Positions 54,511 through 55,859 of a DNA stretch of 64,000 bases are shown one piece after another. Every line of letters starts with the position of its first letter. The stretch's first letter is position 1. Under the pieces are notes generated by a model that was not told the DNA's origin, did not search any database, and was given only the letters and a program-made list of their open reading frames with translations. Source of the DNA: Mitsuaria sp. PDC51 (GTDB taxonomy: Bacteria; Pseudomonadota; Gammaproteobacteria; Burkholderiales; Burkholderiaceae_C); NCBI RefSeq assembly GCF_900113225.1, contig NZ_FOZE01000004.1, forward strand, positions 1 through 64,000. Direction: 5' to 3'. Made by a program: the position numbers and the translations under genes.

Positions 54511-54606
54511 CCCCCTCACCCTAGCCCTCTCCCCCTCTCGGGGGCGAGGGGATGGCTTGCTGGCGAGGGGCAGCGCTGTGGGCTCCCTCTCCCGCTTGCG
54601 GGAGAG
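54511..54606. repeat. REP-like palindrome pair, left part
   Basis: A first unit (54511-54551) reads CCCTCACCCTAGCCCTCTCC and closes with a CCCCTC/GAGGGG hairpin. A second unit in the other orientation begins at 54583 and contains the perfect hairpin CTCTCCCGC-TT-GCGGGAGAG (54587-54606). The insertion sequence interrupts this second unit; its remainder lies at 55758-55772. Confidence 0.8.
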
Positions 54607-54614
54607 CAACCGTG

Positions 54615-55577
54615 TCAAGCGCTTTCGATTTGCCTCCATGGTTGACCGGACTTGAGGATGGCGTTGAGGATGATCAGCAGCTTGCGCATGCACGCGGTCA
54701 TGGCGACCTTGTAGGCCCTGCCCGCGGCTTTCAGGCGGTCATACAGCGCCTTGATCGGCCCATTGCATCGCCTGGCGGTGAACACGGCCATATACAGCGT
54801 GCTGCGCACATCCGCGCGTCCGCCCTGGATATAGCGCTGGCCGCGCCGCCTGCCGCTGTCGTCGGCAAACGGCGCCACCCCCACCAGCGCCGCCAGGCGC
54901 TTGCGGTCCAGGCTGCCCAACTCCGGCAAGCGTCCCAGCAGCATCGAGATCGTGACTCGGCCAATGCCCGGCACGCTGTCGAGCAGCTCGTACTTGGGCT
55001 GGTAGATCGTCGAGTCCTTCAAGCGACCGTCCAGATCCTTGTCGATCTCCTTGATCCGCTTGTCCAGCCATTCGATGTGGTGTCGCACGCTGGTGCGCGC
55101 CACGTGCTTGACCGTGGCCAAGCGGTTCTTCTCCTGCGCGCGCATGCTCACCAGCTGCGCGCGTCGGTCCACCAACTCGATGATCTCCTGCTGCGTCTCG
55201 TCCGGCAGCGCGTACACCTGGGGGCGGGTGGCCTGAGCAAACTTGGCCAACACCTGCGCGTCCAGCCGGTCCGTCTTGGCAAGAACGCCAATTGATCGGG
55301 CGAAGTCGCGCACCTTCTTCGGATTCACCACCGCCACGGCGACCCCCGCTGCACACAGCTCGCTGGCCATCGCCGCCTCGAAGCCTCCCGTCGCTTCCAG
55401 CACCACCAGCGTCGGCGCCAACCGCTGGAGCTGTTTCACGAGCACCGCGCGCCCAGCCTCGTCATTGCTCACTCTGGATGTCAACTCGCCTGGCGCGTCC
55501 TTCAATGGGCTGGACACCTGGGCCACATCCAGCCAAGCCTTGCAAACGTCGACGCCGACGAAGATCTCTGCGTTCAT
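54615..55577 (-). CDS. IS110-family transposase (bridge-RNA recombinase)
   Basis: 320 aa from the ATG at 55575-55577, with AAGGA upstream; 54615-55622 would be the longer frame. The RuvC-like DEDD residues are D10 (FVGVDVCK), E61 (VVLEATGG), D103 and D106 (KTDRLDAQV). A coiled coil lies around 130-185. The C-terminal Transposase_20 domain has [42 protein letters not shown], and Ser259 in [11 protein letters not shown] is the likely nucleophile. All key residues are present, so the enzyme may be active. Confidence 0.95.
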
Positions 55578-55599
55578 GACAGTGCCCTTCCTTGTGTTC

Positions 55600-55740
55600 G
55601 ATACGGCCTCAATGGACCTCACAACCGTTCGGGCTGTCTGTTCATGACGAACCGAGGTCGGCCGCCACGACCCTCGCTCTCCCTCGGTATGGCGCCCAAG
55701 CGCCTACCCTGGGCGGGTCGGCCTGTGGCGGCCTGGGCGT
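55600..55740 (-). ncRNA. Candidate IS110 bridge RNA
   Basis: Upstream of the transposase the minus strand folds into two loops. Loop 1: GGCCGCCAC (55725-55733) pairs with GTGGCGGCC (55660-55668), enclosing a tip hairpin at 55686-55708. Its open sides hold CCCGCCC (55711-55717) and GGGAGAG (55677-55683), which match the left and right target flanks. Loop 2: GACCTC (55654-55659) pairs with GAGGTC (55615-55620); it contains ACGGTTG (55622-55628), identical to the right end of the element (54607-54613). Exact RNA ends are not visible. Confidence 0.7.
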
Positions 55741-55757
55741 ACTTTGCTACATACAAG

Positions 55758-55859
55758 GGCGGGGGTGAGGGTCTTCGAACGCTCGCCCGGCCCCTCTCCG
55801 CCTGACAAGGCTCAGGCGTTGGCCGCCGGAGCATGGGGCCACAGGCGGCAAGCGCCTGA
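55758..55859. repeat. REP-like remainder and a further hairpin
   Basis: 55758-55772 is the other half of the interrupted REP-like unit (GGCGGGGGTGAGGG). Downstream, 55812-55827 pairs with 55844-55859 over 14 of 16 positions, forming a strong hairpin. I see no gene from here to 56064. Confidence 0.65.

Follow-up and report, generated by a model that had tools for sequence, protein, structure and literature searches.

The DNA analysed here, referred to as the window, comprises 64,000 nucleotides (positions 1 to 64,000) of contig NZ_FOZE01000004.1 from Mitsuaria sp. PDC51. An insertion sequence of the IS110 group lies on its minus strand, and its features are collected in Table 1. The recombinase reading frame is open and its product matches both PF01548 (DEDD_Tnp_IS110, 83.8 bits) and PF02371 (Transposase_20, 60.1 bits) above the Pfam cut-offs. 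The residues named as catalytic in the IS621 recombinase, D11, E60, D102, D105 and S241 (PMC11208158, as far as the available part of that paper describes them), are conserved in this recombinase and in all 13 relatives aligned with it.

Table 1. Features of the IS110-group element and its insertion site (window positions)
Feature	Position	Strand	Basis or remark
Whole IS110-group element, including both CT cores	54605..55757	-	Ends read from flanks and relatives
DEDD recombinase (transposase) gene, 320 aa from ATG	54615..55577	-	Pfam and residues
Left-end CT core	55756..55757	-	
Right-end CT core	54605..54606	-	
Left target CCCCGCC, from the left side of the interrupted REP-like sequence	55758..55764	-	
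Right target CTCCC (54600-54604) and remaining REP-like palindrome	54585..54604	-	
Segment spanning both target guides	55661..55732	-	Comparative fold and covariation
Left target guide CCCGCCC	55711..55717	-	7/9 match to own left target and core
Right target guide GGGAGAG	55677..55683	-	7/7 match to core and right target
Handshake guide position(s) CG	55675..55676	-	First base pairs with donor base 7
Donor-binding loop; closing strands CCC (55631-55633) and GGG (55585-55587), hairpin inside at 55605-55618	55585..55633	-	Comparative fold
Left donor guide ACGGUUG	55622..55628	-	Equals the element's last seven bases
Right donor guide GUAU-CGAAC-ACAAG, split pairing with CT-TGTAT	55591..55604	-	Layout as in IS621
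-35-like TTGACA in right end, overlapping the stop codon	54613..54618	-	
-10-like CAAAGT in left end	55741..55746	-	3/6 consensus bases

On the upstream side of the gene there are 178 nt of non-coding DNA, and the stop codon is followed by only 8 bases before the right core. The element therefore shows both characters by which the IS110 group is recognized, namely a DEDD recombinase with an IS110-type Tnp domain and a long left end combined with a very short right end. In an element of the IS1111 group the right end would encode the guide RNA, and some members of that group also target REPs (ISPa11 is an example in the part of the literature available). Here the non-coding region is upstream of the gene and there is no long right end that could bear a guide RNA; this layout led us to reject an IS1111-group identity, which we regard as exceedingly improbable. 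On the minus strand the flanks read ACCCCCGCC-CT on the left and CT-CTCCCGC on the right, or, at greater length, ACCCTCACCCCCGCC-CT-TGTATG and ACACGGTTG-CT-CTCCCGCAAGCGGGAGAGG. The wider span of 54583..55775 given by the sequence-only reading includes flanking REP sequence.

The element occurs once in its own genome, where the other 27 sequence matches are REP-like stretches of 23–47 bases and where a single match to the IS110 domain was obtained (E up to 1e-8). There is therefore no second insertion of the element for comparison. Relatives were sought by protein searches in genomes of the genus (16), family (399), order (399) and class (369), in sets that overlap and count the element's own genome among them, as well as in GTDB genome contigs and plasmids. 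Within the genus (16 genomes including its own, E up to 1e-60) only one partial match, of 48%, was found, and across all of these collections the nearest full-length relatives have at most 56% identity. The ends of the relatives were called from family end patterns; the target guides were not used. For the guide tests, 41 elements with both ends and flanks were reduced to 35 distinct rows falling into 28 clusters, this element included. Excluded were ten elements without a recognized left or right end (L034, L042, L048, L050, L051, L053, L098, L101, L103 and L104) and five where a contig end cuts the flank (L031, L044, L045, L046 and L095); fragments truncated close to the gene start, or ahead of it, were also not used. 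Six relatives (L070, L071, L083, L034, L035 and L036) have left ends that are, or seem to be, about 100 nt longer, with TGTGGATTTGTGGACAAC-like sequences or their inverse before the target loop.

When the element and one CT are removed, the flanks join to form a REP-like palindrome. The pattern CACCC(2–5 N)CCTCTCCC is found at 74 sites in the genome, compared with one for the reversed control pattern. CCCNCCCTCTCCC is found at 24 sites against 2 for its control, and 7 of the 24 are CCCGCCCTCTCCC. No unoccupied orthologous site was found among the same-genus genomes: at the nine loci where both flanks could be aligned, neither CCTCTCCC nor CCTCACCC lies between them, and in the closest same-genus genome the aligned flanks are 38 nt apart. 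A second REP-like copy (CACCCTAGCCCTCTCCC...) adjoins the interrupted one at 54517-54560, which places the element within a pair of REPs. Beside the element, at 55815-55900, is a dispersed repeat of about 75 bp that is distinct from the REP-like sequence; among the matches listed it occurs in dozens of places, in 7 of the 16 same-genus genomes including this one.

The long left end contains two segments that correspond to this insertion site. The left target guide matches the left target, plus core at 7 of 9 positions, with the core T facing A rather than U, and the right target guide matches the core and right target throughout. These motifs, together with ACGGTTG and a CT at both boundaries, had been proposed from the sequence, and all were recovered on the minus strand. 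Since the RNA region and the REP are both rich in G+C, the matches might be coincidental. CCCGCCC and GGGAGAG each arise in about 4% of dinucleotide shuffles of the 178-nt end (901 and 835 of 20,000, respectively), and 33 of 756 swapped right guides are perfect. However, CCCGCCC followed by GGGAGAG within at most 70 nt was produced by only 9 of the 20,000 shuffles, and these two together with ACGGTTG by only 2.

The relatives provide a further comparison. With fixed alignment columns, the right target guide is a perfect match to the element's own five right-target bases in 23 of 28 clusters, most of which have different sites, against the 33 of 756 swapped pairs mentioned above; the summed matches were 132/140, where 100,000 shuffles averaged 47.5 and never exceeded 78. 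The left target guide gave a weaker signal. In a strictly fixed column its matches summed to 108/196 (shuffled mean 64, maximum 90), with at least 5/7 in 8 of 28 clusters compared with 28 of 756 swapped pairs. Where a slip of one column was allowed, and granted equally to the swapped pairs, the sum was 128/168 (shuffled mean 81, maximum 105), with at least 5/6 in 14 of 28 clusters compared with 37 of 756. The swap tests and the shuffles thus contradict coincidence, to which we attach a negligible probability. The base after the right target guide, the handshake position defined for IS621 (PMC11208158, in the part available), is complementary to base 7 of the donor in 34 of 35 rows, this element included, with C opposite a donor G and U opposite a donor A; the exception is L096.

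To obtain a comparative structure, 23 sequences were taken from the 35 rows, leaving aside rows with long insertions, rows that were incompletely extracted and near-copies. RNAalifold placed a target loop with a bulged A first, followed by a donor loop closed by CCC and GGG. Two-sided changes were seen in 14 of 20 base pairs and both loops covary, as the proposal of two loops had called for. Paired cells amounted to 92.7% and the covariation score was 0.487, compared with 0.181 for shuffled alignments and at most 0.119 for slid versions, a control biased in favour of the structure because the structure derives from the same alignment. Taken with the swap tests on the relatives, this covariation strongly supports the sequence-based proposal that the left end encodes an IS110 bridge RNA with a target loop, carrying CCCGCCC and GGGAGAG, that matches its own REP-like site. 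Rfam gave no match in the RNA region, and the only two matches, both at chance level, lie outside it at 54504-54582.

Folded singly, the RNA of this element is stable (z -4.4), yet the donor stem has a probability of 0.00 and ACGGUUG is held in another hairpin. The left donor guide can be masked by pairing with the linker before the donor loop (55605-55660, minus strand). The probability that this guide is paired upstream is 0.73 here, 0.64–0.75 in L076, L085, L079 and L089, and 0.00–0.49 in the other 18 of the 23 sequences. Several relatives likewise fold the donor stem poorly as single sequences. On these predicted pairings the alternative hairpin might conceivably matter for function. The sequence-only reading had correctly identified ACGGTTG as a donor guide, but had drawn the donor loop with ACGGUUG on the 3′ side; the relatives do not support that fold, and we rejected it in favour of the comparative fold, which puts ACGGUUG on the 5′ side with the CCC/GGG closure. 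The earlier drawing probably reflects the single-sequence hairpin that captures ACGGUUG.

Both donor guides match the element's own ends. ACGGTTG recurs at the right end (54607-54613), and the remaining donor guide, for which no clear match had been seen earlier, was located as GUAU-CGAAC-ACAAG. A pattern search found a candidate right donor guide in 47 of 49 rows (absent in L082 and L088), and in the candidate of L101 the core is unpaired. Because the search pattern fixes some of the letters of this guide, the variants are the informative cases. Right donors beginning with AG (L033 and L038) are accompanied by GCUAG and those beginning with TA (L042 and L077) by GUAAG, so that guide and donor co-vary in the four rows where base 10 or 11 is changed.

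We noted that joining the right and left ends creates TTGACA-17-CAAAGT across the core, a 17-nt spacing that exists only when the ends are joined. Among 38 distinct junctions the best -35/-10 pair, with a 17-nt spacer, was at -19 in 26 and at -12 in five; in the remaining seven it was elsewhere or weak, with the best pair of L033 at -22 and scores of at most 7.5 for L044, L047, L049, L077, L099 and L100. By consensus matching, the junction promoter scored above both inserted ends in 30 of the 33 elements with both flanks. The same holds for this element by the same measure, with a -10 box matching at 3/6 positions, and its score was reached by 3 of 200 shuffles.

The five junctions in the -12 register are those of this element (L029), L031, L032, L095 and L096. 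In these the -35 box in the old register matches at only 1–2 of 6 positions, while in the new register the -35 box is 6/6 and the -10 box 3–4/6; in this element the -35 box is separated from the core by 7 nt less than in most relatives. Together with L053 they form one branch of the tree (support 98/98); L053 lies on a long branch and received its label on the evidence of its right end only, and the promoter-shift label was assigned to the tree once the pattern was known. On balance we favour the view that in this clade, probably including L053, the junction promoter was relocated by 7 nt as a unit, with its spacing and its restriction to the junction retained, and that the predicted RNA start near the target-loop stem would make this a naturally shortened bridge RNA. 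The sequences are most simply read as a loss of 7 bases from the right end, in the stretch from TTGAC to the left donor, accompanied by the rise of a new -10 box 7 bases further into the left end.

Sequence and comparison show the guide matches, the loop structure, the catalytic residues and the junction promoter pattern of this element. Very probably, in our view, it is a complete insertion sequence of the IS110 group whose movement relies on recombination guided by a bridge RNA, with a promoter formed on excision and a REP-like target. Excision would bring the right and left ends together to form a promoter across the CT core, from which the left end would be transcribed into a bridge RNA of about 150 nt. 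Of its two loops, the first would pair with CCCGCC-CT-CTCCC in the REP-like palindrome and the second with the joined ends of the element, ACGGTTG-CT-TGTAT, allowing the DEDD recombinase to join target and donor at CT. By analogy with the work on IS621, the element would be expected to leave as a circle, to be transcribed and to direct RNA-guided cleavage, and this copy to be competent.

Alternatively, the copy could be dead or silenced, with guides left over from an earlier insertion and an RNA that is no longer made or misfolds. The single copy, in a genome with seven perfect 13-base sites elsewhere, would fit such a history, as would the weak -10 box and the missing donor stem in the single-sequence fold. 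Against it stand the open frame, the intact catalytic residues and the continued match of all four guides, and poor folding of the donor stem is shared with several relatives; we judge a dead copy to be unlikely. Should the element be active, it would combine a compact recombinase with a short RNA and a target rich in G+C.

The mechanism is of a known type, since the IS621 layout and REP target, other REP-inserting IS110-family elements and circle-formed promoters have already been described in the parts of the literature available. IS621 has the same bridge-RNA layout and itself targets REP sequences (PMC11208160, available part), ISPpu9, ISPpu10, ISRm19 and ISPa11 insert precisely into REP sequences (PMC1525189, available part), and circle-formed promoters are known in the IS110 family (PMC11187229, available part). 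The mechanism is thus the one described for IS621; the present element is a new example, and the promoter shift is one modest new point. Titles and abstract openings, which cover the literature partially and give a weak negative, held no report of this element or of a shifted junction promoter.

As far as the available parts of PMC11208160 and PMC11208158 describe it, IS621 from E. coli shares with this element membership of the IS110 group, a DEDD recombinase with equal catalytic residues, the CT core, a left-end bridge RNA with the target loop before the donor loop, the right donor TGTAT, whose guide is split, a REP target and a junction-spanning promoter, which in the present element is a putative one. 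The recombinase of IS621 is very distant (a long branch in the tree), and the REP-like target of the present element, CCCGCC-CT-CTCCC, is another one. The right target guide here matches 7 bases including the core, compared with 4 paired in the IS621 structure, and the gap in the right donor guide is 5 nt, compared with about 3 (both IS621 values from the same partial sources). By sequence inspection, this element also lacks an obvious 5′ stem-loop. The other known elements were compared by description only, from the available parts of the sources. ISPpu9, ISPpu10, ISRm19 and ISPa11 share precise insertion into REPs but belong to other hosts and REP families (PMC1525189). ISEc21 is likewise IS110-type with an upstream guide RNA and a circle-formed promoter, whereas its target lies in IS3-family transposase genes and not in a REP (PMC11187229).

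The bridge-RNA rules, which cover four guides and the handshake base, can be examined here on a natural example whose lineage is remote from IS621 and whose target belongs to a different REP-like family. The shifted junction promoter bears on how ends that double as donor site, promoter and stop codon can be remodelled. In the E. coli copy of IS621 among our records (L105), we also observed an apparent partial duplication of the start of the left end, at about 1585–1733.
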